From Actinomycetes bacterium (GTDB lineage: Bacteria > Actinomycetota > Thermoleophilia > BMS3ABIN01), in contig JAJYXB010000018.1 in the NCBI GenBank assembly GCA_021791195.1, forward strand, positions 1-64,000: a stretch of DNA of 64,000 bases, given 5' to 3'. Of this stretch, positions 12,564 to 19,628 are shown piece after piece. Position 1 is the stretch's first letter. Each line of letters starts with the position of its first letter. The notes under the pieces are model-generated. The model ran no database searches. It saw nothing but the letters and a program-made list of their open reading frames with translations, and was not told the origin of the DNA. The translations under genes were made by a program, and so were the position numbers.

Positions 12564-12640
12564 GCCGGTGTAGCTCAGTTGGCTAGAGCAGCTGATTTGT
12601 AATCAGCAGGCCACGGGTTCGAATCCTGTCACCGGCTCCA
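12564..12640 (+). tRNA. tRNA-Thr (anticodon UGU)
   Basis: Full cloverleaf: seven-pair acceptor stem (GCCGGTG with CACCGGC), D arm, anticodon stem GCTGA/TCAGC around a TTTGTAA loop (anticodon TGT), T arm with GGTTCGAATCC, and an encoded CCA end. Its 3' half is the integration target of the element to its right; the integrated copy keeps the tRNA intact. Confidence 0.97.
12595..12640 (+). repeat. attL, left 46-bp direct repeat in tRNA-Thr
   Basis: From the anticodon loop to the CCA end of the intact tRNA-Thr gene. It is identical to 19544-19589. Confidence 0.93.
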
Positions 12641-12708
12641 AGCTTTTTACCTGCAAATTATGAGTATTCAACCGCATAACTGCTCCCTGGAAGCCGGTAC
12701 TTTTGCAT

Positions 12709-12730: not shown

Positions 12731-12810
12731 ACCAATGAAGCAAGCCAATGTCTTGGCTGATAAAATACGTGAATCAAAGTCATTAGGTTTAGCCACAAAA
12801 GGGGTGTGTG

Positions 12811-13176
12811 TTGAAACGCAACATGGATTTGATTCGGGAAATTTTGCTGAAATTGGAACAAAAAGATAACGATTTCGTAGGGCCGCTTGAAATTGAAGGA
12901 TATGAGCAAAAAGACATCTCTTATCAGATAGGCCTACTGCATGATGCTGGACTAATTTCCGATCTGGATGATCTTACTCACATGGGATCACAGGGAAAAG
13001 AGTATTGGCCTGATCGTCTAACCTGGGAGGGTCATGAATTTCTTGAAGCTTCTAGAGATAAAAATAGATGGGATCAGGCAAAACAAACTATGGTCGAAAA
13101 GAGCGGCGGCATTGCTTTTTCAGTTTTCAGACAGCTGCTTTTAGAACTTACGAAGCGCGCAGTCTTTGGAACATAG
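12811..13176 (+). CDS. DUF2513 family protein
   Basis: A 121-residue protein of the DUF2513 family, common in phages and islands and of unknown function. The start MKRNMDLIREIL, the two-stranded middle (YQIGLLHDAGLI) and the WEGHEFLEASRD motif fit the family and a winged-helix-like fold. I chose TTG 12811 over GTG 12808 because the family starts with KR-DMDLIR; AAAAGGGG lies upstream. It is the first gene inside attL and converges on the integrase gene. Confidence 0.72.
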   Translation: MKRNMDLIREILLKLEQKDNDFVGPLEIEGYEQKDISYQIGLLHDAGLISDLDDLTHMGSQGKEYWPDRLTWEGHEFLEASRDKNRWDQAKQTMVEKSGGIAFSVFRQLLLELTKRAVFGT

Positions 13177-13191
13177 AAACCGGCTTTGTTG

Positions 13192-14334
13192 TTACAACTT
13201 GAATCCTAGCACTTCATCCATTTTCTCTGCCGCCTCTTTCATCAGCACCGGCATCACATGGCTATACGTATTCATGGTAAGACTGATCTGGGAATGGCCG
13301 AGGGTTTCCATAACGACGCGCGGACTGACACCCTGGACAAGTAACAGACTAGCGCACGAATGTCTTAGGTCATGGAAGCGGATATCTGGCAATCCTGCTT
13401 TACGGAGCAACATTTTGAAGTGACGAAAATAAAGATGCTGTCCGTCCAGCGGCGTCCCCAGTTTTGAAGTAAAAACAAAGTCGTGATCCTGCCAGTGGGG
13501 CCCTGCTAGCATCTTTTCTTCAAGCTGATGTTTCCGATGTTCTCTCAAGGCCAGTGTAGCGAACACGGGCAGACCCAGAGTTCGACGGCTGTTTTTACTT
13601 TTCGGCTCTGCCAACTCCCAGCCGCCGCCGTCCACCCGTTGCAAAGTGTGGCAAACTCTAAGAGTCCTTGCCTCCAGGTCGACGTCCTCCCAACGGAGGG
13701 CCAAGCACTCCCCACGACGTAAACCCAAAGAAACGGCAACTGTGTAGAGCGCTTCCAGTCGATCACCCTTGGCAGCTTCCAGAAAAGTGCGCGCCTGATC
13801 TGGCGAAAGCGGCTTTACTTCAAAATGTTGTGTTCGTGGAGGATCAACTAGTTTCGCCACGTTCCGCGGCACCAGTTCCCACTTTCGAGCTTGAACCAGT
13901 GCACGTCTGATAACAGCGTGAATATATTGGACACTGCGGGGGGATAAGCCTGAATCCAATTTTCGGTTAATAAGACTCTGAATATCCCTTGGGCATAACT
14001 TTGCCAGCTTAATATTTCCAAGGTCCGGCGCAATATGGCGCTCTACTAATTGCGAATAACTTTTAAAGGTCCGGGGCCGGACGCTCGGCTTAACGGAATC
14101 CTCCAGCCACTTGTCCAGGAATTGCCCAAAAGTGATTTTGTCATTGGATACCGGCAAGCCTAGCTGACGGTTCCTGAGAGCTTCTGTAAGCTTCGCCGAG
14201 ACTTCAGCACGGGTCTTTCCATAAAGATATTTTCGCTTCCTCGTGCCTCCTTGGTAGCCTAAATTCAAGCATCCTACCCATCTTCCATCTTTTGCCTTAT
14301 AGATGCTTCCTTCGTTTTGACCCCGTTTAGCCAT
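13192..14334 (-). CDS. int: Tyrosine recombinase / phage-type integrase
   Basis: Site-specific recombinase that presumably integrates and excises this element at tRNA-Thr. The 380 residues comprise an N-terminal arm-binding domain (NEGSIYKAKDGRWVG), a core-binding SAM-like domain and a catalytic domain. The catalytic residues are visible: R in LGLRRGECLALRW, HDLRHS (H-x-x-R), H in TLGHSQ and the nucleophile Y in NTYSHV. The gene is intact, so the element may still be mobile. The start follows a CCTCCTATT (minus-strand AATAGGAGG) ribosome site. Confidence 0.95.
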   Translation of the reverse strand: MAKRGQNEGSIYKAKDGRWVGCLNLGYQGGTRKRKYLYGKTRAEVSAKLTEALRNRQLGLPVSNDKITFGQFLDKWLEDSVKPSVRPRTFKSYSQLVERHIAPDLGNIKLAKLCPRDIQSLINRKLDSGLSPRSVQYIHAVIRRALVQARKWELVPRNVAKLVDPPRTQHFEVKPLSPDQARTFLEAAKGDRLEALYTVAVSLGLRRGECLALRWEDVDLEARTLRVCHTLQRVDGGGWELAEPKSKNSRRTLGLPVFATLALREHRKHQLEEKMLAGPHWQDHDFVFTSKLGTPLDGQHLYFRHFKMLLRKAGLPDIRFHDLRHSCASLLLVQGVSPRVVMETLGHSQISLTMNTYSHVMPVLMKEAAEKMDEVLGFKL

Positions 14335-14344
14335 TACCAGCCTC

Positions 14345-15361
14345 CTATTTCTTTGAAATCCACCTTTTTACAGATGCCAGATCAGCGTTTAATTGCTTAG
14401 CAATTGCTTCAGGTGAAGCGCCATCGCGATGAAGCCTCCGGGTTTTTGCTTGTCTCCTTCTCAAATCACGCTGTGCCTGCGATTTCGCACACGCGTAATC
14501 ACAATAGTCAACGCCTTTTAATCTATACCGCTTGCCAGAAGCTCGCCCTCGTTGCCGCACAAACACGTTTTTGCAAGTTTCATTACCGCAAGGCTTATAA
14601 GTTGCATTTTCATTTATATGATTTGCTAGCTGGAGACAGAGAAGTGAAAACAGATCAGGTACAGGCTGACCGACAGGAAAGGCATTATCGATATTGAAGT
14701 CAATTTCGAGCCTGACCTGGAATGCTTTAAGTCCACGATTTAGCAAATTTCCGAGCAGGAGAAGGAGAATCCAATCCTCCCCTTTGTGCGGCTTGGCTTG
14801 TTCTAAAAGGGGTTTCAACCAATCGCTTTCCATTTCGTTGAAAAAATCTTCCAAGGATAGTTGTCTCTTATATAGCTGCCAGGCTCTGGTCATGTCCCGA
14901 AGCATGGCTGCATAAAATATAAATTCATCAACTTGGCGAACAGCGATCAACTCCGAATCAAGGTATTGGATCGGAACGTTTCTTGTAAAAGCTTGTGCCT
15001 GTGTTTTTAATAGCTCCAGGAGATCAGAATTAATATCGTTAGAAGAGTCTCGGTCTAACTCCCAATCTGTCCACCCAAACCGTCCGTATTTGCGCGAAAA
15101 ATCAAGTATTGCTTTAGGGTCATGAAGATCCAACTCTTTTAATTCGCGCAAATACAACTCATCCGGGAGAACAACGGGATCGCCAGGTCTATTCTCGAAT
15201 ATTAGGAATTCGTCCTGGCATAGCCAGACAGGGAAAACGTAGGCAGCAGGAACGCTCACCTTGGATTCTGGCCAGGTAGTGATACGAAGCTGTGGATTTT
15301 TAGGCCTTTTTTTCAAATCATCTTCGTGATACTGTAATTCATTATAATGTCCCTCATTCAA
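14345..15361 (-). CDS. Unknown protein with C-terminal zinc knuckle and HTH
   Basis: I do not recognise the first 240 residues of this 338-residue protein. The C-terminus has a CGNETCKNVF...YCDYAC four-cysteine cluster followed by a basic helix (AQRDLRRRQAKTRR) and a short helix-turn-helix (SPEAIAKQLNADLASVKRW). The layout recalls CGNR-type zinc fingers and suggests nucleic-acid binding. It starts with TTG, is co-directional with int (10-base gap) and is divergent from the small HTH gene at 15421. It may be the element's regulator or excision control; that is an inference from position only. Confidence 0.6.
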   Translation of the reverse strand: MNEGHYNELQYHEDDLKKRPKNPQLRITTWPESKVSVPAAYVFPVWLCQDEFLIFENRPGDPVVLPDELYLRELKELDLHDPKAILDFSRKYGRFGWTDWELDRDSSNDINSDLLELLKTQAQAFTRNVPIQYLDSELIAVRQVDEFIFYAAMLRDMTRAWQLYKRQLSLEDFFNEMESDWLKPLLEQAKPHKGEDWILLLLLGNLLNRGLKAFQVRLEIDFNIDNAFPVGQPVPDLFSLLCLQLANHINENATYKPCGNETCKNVFVRQRGRASGKRYRLKGVDYCDYACAKSQAQRDLRRRQAKTRRLHRDGASPEAIAKQLNADLASVKRWISKK

Positions 15362-15420: not shown

Positions 15421-15657
15421 ATGAAACAAGATGAACTAACACCTTTTTTACTTAAGATAAATGAGGCTGCACGTCTGGCATCGGTAGGGCGGAGCAAGGC
15501 TTATGAACTTGCAGCCAATGGTAGTTGGCCCGCAATCAAAATCGGTAGATCGCTCAGAATTCCGCGCGCAGGGCTTCTTAACTGGATAGCTCGGATGGAA
15601 GAAGAAGCTCAAGACTTAGCAGACGAGCGGAGACGCGAAATAAGAGATTTTTCATAG
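15421..15657 (+). CDS. Small excisionase/MerR-like HTH protein
   Basis: A 78-residue protein with a winged-helix DNA-binding pattern (LKINEAARLASVGRSKAYELAANG then IKIGRSLRIPRAGLLNWI), typical of AlpA/excisionase-type helix-turn-helix proteins. Such proteins direct excision or control the genes of integrative elements. It starts 60 bases from the divergent minus-strand gene. GGGAGA upstream serves as the ribosome site. Confidence 0.78.
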   Translation: MKQDELTPFLLKINEAARLASVGRSKAYELAANGSWPAIKIGRSLRIPRAGLLNWIARMEEEAQDLADERRREIRDFS

Positions 15658-15694: not shown

Positions 15695-15916
15695 ATGCTA
15701 AATCTCGACGTAGTTTATCCCTTGCCTTGCCGGGGAAGTCAACGCTCCTTAAATCGGGACATTCCAGAAATGGATTTATCCGCTTTGGAAGCAGATATTT
15801 ATCGCGCGAGGCACCGGCTTCTTCTCGAAACTGAAATGTTGAATCGCATGTACCTGAAAGAGCGTTTGCACCTTCTTACAGCCCGAGCTTCTGAATTGAA
15901 GCGAGCGATAGCTTGA
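15695..15916 (+). CDS. Hypothetical small helical protein
   Basis: A 73-residue product, unrecognised. The second half (residues 28-73) is predicted to be a long charged helix. It lies between the HTH gene and the ATPase gene and overlaps the latter by four bases (TTGA), so the pair is probably translationally coupled. No strong ribosome site is seen. Confidence 0.5.
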   Translation: MLNLDVVYPLPCRGSQRSLNRDIPEMDLSALEADIYRARHRLLLETEMLNRMYLKERLHLLTARASELKRAIA

Positions 15917-17415
15917 CCGGTGCAGACATAGAGGAAACGTTCGAAGCTTCGGTGCCTGTGCTGAAAGAAACATATACCGAAACAACCTCCAATGCTCCAG
16001 CGAAGCGGCCCACGATCTCGGAAAAGCTTGTCCGTCTAGGTGAAGCCGCTGAACTTTTTCATGAAGAAGACTGTACTCCCTTTGCATCCGTGATTTTAAA
16101 AGGGGGACACTCAGCAACATGGCCGCTTAATTACAAAGACTTCAGACTGTGGCTAGAGCGCGAGTATTGGTGCAAGTATGGCCAGGTTCCTAGTTCTCAA
16201 GCCATGCAGGACGCGCTACGCGTTCTGGCGGCAATGGCGATACATGACGGGCAGGAGCATCAGGTGTTTGTTCGTGTAGCAGGGACCGATGACGCCGTTT
16301 ATATCGACTTGGTAAACGACGCCTGGGAAGCGGTAGAGATAACAGCCGATGGCTGGCAAGTAATAGCCAATCCGCCGGTAAAGTTTCGCCGCGCCAAAGG
16401 GATGAAGCCGCTTCCGCATCCTGAACGCGGCGGTAGTATCGACGAACTGAGAGAGTTTGTAAATATCAAAAACGAAGTTAACTTCATTCTCTTTTCCGGT
16501 TACATAATCGGCGCTCTAAATGCAAACGGGCCTTACCCGGTGCTGGTAATTAACGGCGAGCAAGGTTCGGCAAAAACTTCCGCGCAGCGCGTAGCATGCA
16601 AGCTTATTGATCCCGGGCGCCCCGATCTTCGTTCAGCTCCGAGGAACGAGCAAGATTTTGTGATCGGAGCAAGAAACAAATGGGCGCTTGGCTTCGACAA
16701 TCTATCCCACATTCAGCCCTGGTTTTCGGACGCTATCTGTAGGCTGGCGACTGGCAGCGGTTTTGCAACCCGAACCCTTTATGAAAACGATGAAGAAACT
16801 ACCTTCGAGGCCACAAGACCGCAGCTTCTAAACGGAATAGGCGATATAGCAAACCGAGGAGACTTGCTTAGCCGCGCGCTTGTTATTACTTTACCGTCAA
16901 TATCGGCAAGCAGCCGAAAGAGCGAATCAACCTTTTGGCAAAGCTTCGAGGTTGCTAGGCCGCGCATTCTTGGCGCTCTTTATGATGCGGTTTCCTGTGC
17001 GATTAGGGATCTACCAAATGTTCACCTGGATGCTTTACCACGCATGGCAGACTTTGTTAAATGGGTAACAGCAGCTGAGCCGGCGCTGGGATGGGTTAAG
17101 CATACATTTGTGGACGCCTGCAATTACAACCGTAAGCAGGCTAATGAGCTAGCCCTGGAAGCATCACCGTTGACGCCGTTTGTTTTCCAGGTTGCAAAAA
17201 GTGACTGGCAGGGGTCACCGTCTGAGCTGCTAGTGAAGTTAAATGAACTTGCGCCGGACTCCCAGAAGCATCTCAAAGCATGGCCAAAAAGCGCCAAGGC
17301 ACTAACAAACGAGCTTGACAGGCTGGCTCCCGATTTAAGAGCAACGGGAATAAATGCCGAACGGGGCCGCAATATGCACGGGCGGTTCTGGACTATCGAA
17401 CGTCTTAAAGAATGA
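15913..17415 (+). CDS. Replication-type P-loop ATPase of the element
   Basis: A 500-residue protein with a central P-loop (INGEQGSAKTSAQR, about residues 213-226), a DNLS-type acidic strand (ALGFDNLSHIQPW) and a conserved RGDLLSRAL segment with an arginine-finger look. This is the layout of primase-associated or D5/VirE-like ATPases of phage satellites and islands. The N-terminal 120 residues lack a recognisable primase site. It begins with TTG overlapping the previous stop. The iteron array directly downstream supports a role in replication. Confidence 0.75.
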   Translation: MTGADIEETFEASVPVLKETYTETTSNAPAKRPTISEKLVRLGEAAELFHEEDCTPFASVILKGGHSATWPLNYKDFRLWLEREYWCKYGQVPSSQAMQDALRVLAAMAIHDGQEHQVFVRVAGTDDAVYIDLVNDAWEAVEITADGWQVIANPPVKFRRAKGMKPLPHPERGGSIDELREFVNIKNEVNFILFSGYIIGALNANGPYPVLVINGEQGSAKTSAQRVACKLIDPGRPDLRSAPRNEQDFVIGARNKWALGFDNLSHIQPWFSDAICRLATGSGFATRTLYENDEETTFEATRPQLLNGIGDIANRGDLLSRALVITLPSISASSRKSESTFWQSFEVARPRILGALYDAVSCAIRDLPNVHLDALPRMADFVKWVTAAEPALGWVKHTFVDACNYNRKQANELALEASPLTPFVFQVAKSDWQGSPSELLVKLNELAPDSQKHLKAWPKSAKALTNELDRLAPDLRATGINAERGRNMHGRFWTIERLKE

Positions 17416-17429
17416 GCATGCAAATATCC

Positions 17430-17569
17430 GTCACAAGCGTCATACCCGTCATATGCCTTTTATTAAACAAAAAAAACATGACGGACACAGGTGCTTCATG
17501 ACAGATAGTGTGTCCCTAAAGTACGTAGGAAATAGCAAACTTATGACACAAATGACAGATATGACGGAG
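17430..17569 (+). repeat. Symmetric 9-bp iteron arrays, putative replication origin
   Basis: Three GTCAY-headed 9-base repeats start at 17430, 17439 and 17448. Three copies of the reverse complement (ATGAC-headed, same 9-base period) start at 17543, 17552 and 17561. Two further ATGAC boxes lie between them at 17478 and 17498, next to an AT-rich run (17457-17477). The inverted arrangement around an AT-rich core beside an ATPase gene is what a small replicon origin looks like. Confidence 0.6.
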
Positions 17570-17582
17570 AGAAACGCACGGA

Positions 17583-17766
17583 TTCTTTTCAATGCCGATT
17601 GAAATTTGACCCTTTACCGACGATCGAAGATTGGCTCCCCTGGCCTTCTTCTTTTGCCCTATTCCTGATTTACGCTTGTCCTTGAGCCGATAGTTCTAGT
17701 CTTTAACTAAATCGTTGTGGCGTGGTGCAGCTGCCTCTCGGGAGTTTTAAAATGATTTTTAGCGAC
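17583..17766. other. Non-coding stretch between iterons and cargo
   Basis: Nothing recognisable is seen here: no open frame with a ribosome site and no clear hairpin. Together with the iteron block it makes a 414-base gap without a convincing gene. Confidence 0.4.
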
Positions 17767-17866
17767 TCTCTGGAAACGCTGGTTTGATAGTAGTATTATT
17801 CTTGGCCAAACGACGGGAGGGGAAGACAAATGACTAAAATAGTAATGGATTCTATCAGCGAAGATA
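17767..17866 (+). repeat. Duplicated upstream region, copy 1
   Basis: This block and 18634-18730 are near-identical through the leader (TTTGATAGTAGTATTATTC, then CTTGGCCAAAC), the ribosome site and the first codons of the following gene. They read as a duplicated promoter-leader cassette. The first copy drives the gene at 17830. Confidence 0.8.
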
Positions 17867-18633: not shown

Positions 18634-18730
18634 TCTCTGGAAATGCTGGATTTGATAGTAGTATTATTCTTGGCCAAACAATGGGGGGGAAAGACAAATG
18701 ACAAAAATCGTATTTGATTCTGTCGAAGAT
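18634..18730 (+). repeat. Duplicated upstream region, copy 2
   Basis: Second copy of the leader cassette at 17767-17866, with one inserted base and a few substitutions. It drives the membrane protein gene at 18698. Confidence 0.8.
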
Positions 18731-19543: not shown

Positions 19544-19589
19544 ATTTGTAATCAGCAGGCCACGGGTTCGAATCCTGTCACCGGCTCCA
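19544..19589 (+). repeat. attR, right 46-bp direct repeat
   Basis: Identical to the tRNA-Thr 3' part at 12595-12640. It is not a functional tRNA because the 5' half is absent. Confidence 0.93.
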
Positions 19590-19628
19590 GTTTTTTGCCT
19601 GCTTTCCGCCCGGACGGCGCCAACCGGG

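Follow-up and report, generated by a model that had tools for sequence, protein, structure and literature searches.

A cluster of short repeats immediately 3' of an ATPase gene in the 64-kb window (the whole stretch of 64,000 nucleotides analyzed here) very probably serves as the origin from which a 7-kb integrative element replicates, with the ATPase encoded upstream as its initiator helicase (Rep). We favor this reading because of the predicted fold of the ATPase, the conserved layout of the repeats, and the SaPI and pFP11 precedents of a Rep that binds repeats. The array lies 3' of the rep gene, its box and mirrored 9-bp layout recur at distant homologues, the predicted fold is D5/SaPI-Rep-like, and the element is an inserted one.

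The array comprises eight RTGACRS boxes, which a 7-mer count across the window located within positions 17428–17567. The left iteron triple (17426–17454, minus strand) has its 7-mer starts at 17428, 17437, and 17446, and the right triple (17543–17569, plus strand) at 17543, 17552, and 17561, both at 9-bp steps. Between them are an AT-rich run (17456–17478), a candidate DNA unwinding element, and two single boxes (17478–17506, plus strand; starts at 17478 and 17498). These positions match the three inverted, two single, and three direct boxes with an AT-rich run that the sequence-only reading had described after the ATPase gene; it had placed the array correctly, but the bounds given there, 17430–17569, are better set at 17426–17569. 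The inverted and direct triples flank positions 17456–17542, the AT-rich run included, which is the arrangement expected of a SaPI-type origin. The window contains 73 RTGACRS boxes in total, eight of them inside the array; the densest 145-bp stretch elsewhere in the 64 kb holds two, and 200 Markov simulations of the window stayed at or below five, compared to eight in the array. The stop codon of the ATPase gene occupies 17413–17415, and the array begins approximately 10 bp 3' of it. An 82-aa ORF (17354–17602), which starts within the ATPase gene in another frame and has no Pfam match, spans the array. When the array was folded as a single strand, the z of -2.5 was only modest and is accounted for by the inverted boxes.

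The element that carries the array is inserted in a tRNA gene. It is approximately 7 kb long and is bounded by a 53-nt direct repeat of tRNA-Thr, whose two copies are 94% identical. The attL copy (12595–12647, plus strand) consists of the 3' part of tRNA-Thr(TGT), which a tRNA scan placed at 12564–12640, and the bases following it, and attR (19544–19596, plus strand) was located by the repeat match; in congeners the tRNA directly precedes other conserved genes. Four congeners (G001, G002, G004, and G005) possess the same tRNA without the element, and homologues of the genes at 24–31 kb of the window lie within a few kilobases after the tRNA in them. Judging from its relatives, the window probably belongs to the Actinomycetota. 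The att repeat and the empty sites establish the integrative element that had been proposed from the sequence. Its G+C content is 0.47, compared to 0.615 for the whole window, and an RNA family scan found nothing besides the tRNA. The element encodes a tyrosine integrase (13192–14334, minus strand; PF00589, E 1.1e-26; phrog_1, E 6e-77), an HTH_17 protein that is probably an excisionase or regulator (15421–15657, plus strand; PF12728, E 5.6e-10; phrog_66 excisionase, E 3e-6), a 73-aa ORF (15695–15916, plus strand) with no Pfam or PHROG family, and the 500-aa Rep-like ATPase (15913–17415, plus strand), identified by its ORF, invariant residues, model, and PDB match. The 73-aa ORF overlaps the ATPase start by 4 nt, and the two genes probably form one operon. 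A few cargo genes complete the element. Pfam and PHROG scans recognized no primase, relaxase, partition, or packaging genes among the ORFs of the element. An integrase and an att site are present as in a PICI, and the other PICI marks (primase, capsid-interference, small-terminase, and phage-responsive repressor genes) were found in none of the eight element ORFs by Pfam and PHROG; since no satellite genes were found, we do not classify the element as a PICI.

Some further features of the element were observed. A DUF2513 protein is encoded at its attL end (12808–13176, plus strand; PF10711, E 8.5e-25). Adjoining the integrase is a gene for a 338-aa protein (14345–15361, minus strand) that combines a CGN-type motif rich in cysteine with an HTH-like stretch at the C-terminus and whose family matches are weak only. 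A 74-nt leader is duplicated (88%) at 17783–17856 and 18651–18724 ahead of two cargo genes; both copies contain the same promoter-like pair, TGGAAA and TATTAT, and both cargo proteins begin with MTKIV.

The ATPase consists of an N-terminal domain, a P-loop helicase core, and a C-terminal winged-helix-like domain (residues 421–497), which is helix-helix-helix-strand-strand in the model. The core motifs are GEQGSAKT with K221, D262/N263, and R321. G218, K221, D262/N263, and R321 were invariant or nearly so among 40 sequences, revealing a Walker A motif, an acidic Walker B region, and a conserved arginine. No Pfam, NCBIfam, or PHROG family matched the ATPase, only some members of its family showed weak VapE-like and AAA matches, and sequence searches of the PDB returned noise only. 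An AlphaFold2 model built from the 40 sequences (pLDDT 89.2, pTM 0.85) superseded an earlier one from seven sequences, in which the ATPase core was poor. The top PDB structure match of the model was the SaPI5 primase-helicase Rep (7ola; E 2.7e-9, probability 1.00, TM 0.50/0.57), and the other solved structures that matched were SCCmec Cch (5dgk, E 2.6e-7), viral D5-type helicases, and the C-terminal region of the NrS-1 phage primase. In a viral structure library, full-length matches were obtained with a phage ATP-binding protein (TM 0.88) and the Zeta1847 helicase (TM 0.82). By its predicted fold, the ATPase is a D5/SaPI-Rep-like (SF3-type) helicase. The earlier statement that neither the ATPase type nor the origin could be named therefore stands in part: no named family was found for this widespread type, the ATPase matching none in Pfam, NCBIfam, or PHROG, but the predicted fold is D5/SaPI-Rep-like, and the order of a rep gene and then flanking iterons is that of the SaPIs.

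Homologues of the ATPase were found on plasmids of Streptomyces, Methylobacterium, Stanieria, Chlorohelix, and the archaeon Methanothrix, as well as on a few chromosomes, in one isolated phage, and in a viral collection, where over 50 contigs carry one. In several of them a Prim-Pol is fused to, or precedes, the ATPase; the search by homology for primases in the upstream DNA lacked the sensitivity needed to count losses. The closest homologue, L022 (G137; 48% identity), is interrupted by an in-frame TAG within the conserved C-terminal part, and the array beyond the TAG is intact.

The mirrored layout was examined at 56 non-redundant ATPase loci (pairwise amino acid identity below 60%) by scanning 450 nt past the ATPase core for two inverted boxes at a 9-bp step and, no more than 250 bp further on, two direct boxes at the same step. 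Mirrored doublets were present at 14 of the 56 loci, and both triples at eight (the window, L026, L105, L083, L088, L082, L069, and L075), so that the 9-base period anticipated downstream of homologous ATPase genes, the lack of which had been named as grounds for abandoning the proposal, does occur there. Eight of the 14 loci with mirrored doublets were fetched after the motif had been fixed. Control steps of 6–8 and 10–15 bp yielded zero to one locus, and none was obtained from a Markov simulation or from a region of the same length within the coding core of the ATPase. The carriers are scattered over the family tree and do not form one small clade. No clear mirrored array with this box was seen at this place in the remaining 42 loci, and some of these homologues may use other boxes or another site. 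The array search downstream was unclear or negative for Rhodovulum, Methylobacterium, and L027. At L027 (G167), the gene order is the same as in the window (integrase on the minus strand, HTH and ATPase on the plus strand, and no primase seen), and no GACG array was found near the ATPase gene; its origin may be elsewhere or may use another box.

The box itself is shared more widely. Exact 6-mer clustering missed the array of the window, the boxes of which are degenerate, and was replaced by a search with a degenerate box. In a k-mer scan, most of the plasmid homologues had an array downstream, and arrays follow the homologues on Chlorohelix, Streptomyces, and Stanieria plasmids. The Chlorohelix plasmid has TGTGACGCT repeats in both orientations 3' of the ATPase gene, the pFP11 homologue has nine GGGACGC boxes 554–803 nt 3' of the gene, and the Stanieria plasmids have two-plus-two boxes around an AT-rich stretch. 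The boxes of G217 (CCCGTCATC CCCGTCACA CCCGTCATC ... ATGACAGCA ATGACAGCG ATGACGGCC) are nearly identical to those of the window, and viral contig L072 carries GATGACGCG GATGACGCA GAATTTTAAAAAC GTGCGTCAT CTGCGTCAT in the opposite (facing) order. With the box fixed as (T/G)GAC(A/G), a significant cluster just past the ATPase core was detected in 22 of 54 newly fetched viral loci, a set that includes two re-fetches of loci seen before; 55 same-strand steps in the clusters of these loci were exactly 9 bp. Pooling the boxes across arrays gave n(T/G)GACG(G/C)TG, with TGACG or GGACG as the shared box. A motif-free 5-mer scan was dominated by GC bias, and CGTCA ranked second downstream and outside the top 15 in the control. 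In the window, L022, L026, L075, and L088, there are 16–19 nt from the last position of the conserved core to the start of the left triple. In L069, L071/L105, L075, and L022 the 3' coding tail contains the array, and in other relatives it comes after the stop codon, which indicates that the conserved unit is the DNA box and not a peptide. In L069, L071, L075, and L022, the array in the coding tail gives rise to a repetitive, low-complexity protein C-terminus. L025 and L028 contain clustered repeats with the cores ATTCCAC and CCTCCAC in the 3' coding part, which suggests subfamilies with a switched box.

The nearest functional parallels are the Rep/ori systems of SaPI5 and SaPIbov1 and Cch/Cch2 of SCCmec. 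The C-terminal domain of SaPI Rep recognizes the short repeats that make up the origin immediately past the rep gene, and Cch2 binds a sequence 3' of its own gene in the same manner, its iteron being AAGTG in three copies (PMC7581432). The window shares with these systems an integrative element, a related self-loading hexameric helicase fold, a C-terminal DNA-binding domain (predicted here), and a short-repeat origin directly 3' of the helicase gene, a position that is the same in the homologues. It differs from them in the ATPase sequence (approximately 12% identity, no Pfam match), in the box (TGACG at a 9-bp step, 3+3 mirrored), and in that no primase or satellite genes were recognized in the element. 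By analogy, the origin would work like a SaPI origin, the ATPase being placed in the D5/SaPI-Rep-like fold group.

Among replicons with a homologous ATPase, the nearest that have been studied in print are the pFP11-type Streptomyces plasmids. The theta plasmid pFP11 encodes a homologous ATPase (30% identity) with GACG boxes downstream in both orientations, and its Rep is mentioned as binding its iterons (PMC3583192, citing Zhang 2008). Its Prim-Pol/ATPase pair is the only evident annotated replication locus, and we infer that the ATPase homologue, WP_011265226.1, is the published RepA. Unlike the window element, pFP11 is a free plasmid; it encodes Prim-Pol and ParA, neither of which was found in the element, and its array begins approximately 550 nt past the stop codon with irregular spacing. 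The repA/repB locus of pWTY27 combines a Prim-Pol with a second Rep and has 7–8 bp repeats in both orientations that were footprinted with RepA (PMC3583192); its box, GTGGGAAC, is unlike that of the window, and the likeness lies in the described organization of the locus. The pRN1 orf904 and ICETh2 Ppol-Hel proteins are likewise primase-helicase modules of mobile elements. For pRN1 to replicate, a 166-bp segment immediately after the rep gene is required (PMC4234260), but its origin is a stem-loop and iterons are absent. Among relatives of ICETh2, a DUF927 domain makes up the helicase part (PMC7693054), and the window ATPase has no Pfam match to this domain.

These comparisons suggest how the origin might operate. 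Int/Xis would first excise the element, and the C-terminal domain of Rep would then bind the TGACG boxes, each of the two oppositely facing triples seating one Rep hexamer. The AT-rich stretch between the triples would melt, and the two helicases would depart in opposite directions. A 9-bp step would rotate successive boxes by approximately -51 degrees, and since this is close to the 60 degrees between neighboring hexamer subunits, three boxes could touch three adjacent subunits. The host primase and polymerase would probably finish replication, given that the element has no recognized primase gene.

The missing primase also bears on whether this copy is still active. The replicon may have decayed or may depend on a helper, no primase having been detected in it, unlike in many relatives, which have one upstream or fused. 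We nevertheless consider it unlikely that the layout is merely inherited from a replicating ancestor and that the copy has been inactive since the primase was lost: the ATPase frame, Walker A, and the other invariant residues are intact, and the boxes are well kept. Primase loss is not necessarily fatal, because the SaPI primase is non-essential in vivo (PMC7581432) and ICETh2 replicates without its Ppol primase (PMC7693054).

Inverted operator sites are common beside regulators, and two cargo genes downstream of the array share the duplicated leader with promoter-like sites, so the array might be an operator through which Rep or the HTH_17 protein controls transcription of rep or the cargo, with no origin involved. 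This is quite improbable. The position of the array is 3' of rep, and several relatives have it within the 3' coding tail and not at a promoter; over plasmids and phages it tracks the helicase and not the HTH or cargo genes; and 3+3 boxes flanking an AT-rich stretch are more than an operator usually has. Repeated short boxes are also typical of accessory sites for Int/Xis recombination and of parS-like partition sites. There is only a very slight chance that the array has such a role in place of initiation, as attL is approximately 4.8 kb away and attR 2 kb, the ORF list, Pfam, and PHROG revealed no ParA/ParB gene in the element, and arrays also occur at plasmid homologues without a neighboring integrase. 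Least credible is the view that the repeats are a by-product of an M-T-rich repetitive peptide encoded over 17354–17602, the other finding that would have counted against the original proposal. Although 9 bp is a multiple of 3, the 82-aa ORF crosses the array, and some relatives have the array inside the 3' coding tail, the array of the window lies past the ATPase stop codon and the ORF has no Pfam relatives. Moreover, the boxes occur on both strands, and their position relative to the stop codon varies by homologue while the DNA box is constant.

Beyond the window, we regard it as possible, with a little less than an even chance, that the initiator and origin form one old portable module across Actinomycetota, Chloroflexota, Cyanobacteriota, probably Pseudomonadota, and an archaeal plasmid, carried by integrative elements, plasmids, and phages. 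The D5/SaPI-Rep-like helicase would mostly read a GAC-centered 9-bp box, the fullest form being the 3+3 mirrored array that seats two facing hexamers, and the window element would use the module without a primase of its own. The helicase family as such, its GACG box, and the maintenance of the 3+3 mirrored layout over hosts and element types appear to be new. For a member of this helicase family, the origin can often be read at the 3' end of the gene, and replicating integrative elements now annotated as hypothetical become recognizable by the helicase and its 3' array. Three boxes at 9-bp steps facing three others offer a clean geometry for studying the head-to-head placement of hexameric self-loading helicases. 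The arrays also supply a set of minimal origins, such as the short 2+2 origins of the Stanieria plasmids and L072. Two different plasmids of one Stanieria strain, L032 and L033, have near-identical minimal two-plus-two boxes about an AT-rich stretch, in each case located between the ATPase gene and a NADAR gene.
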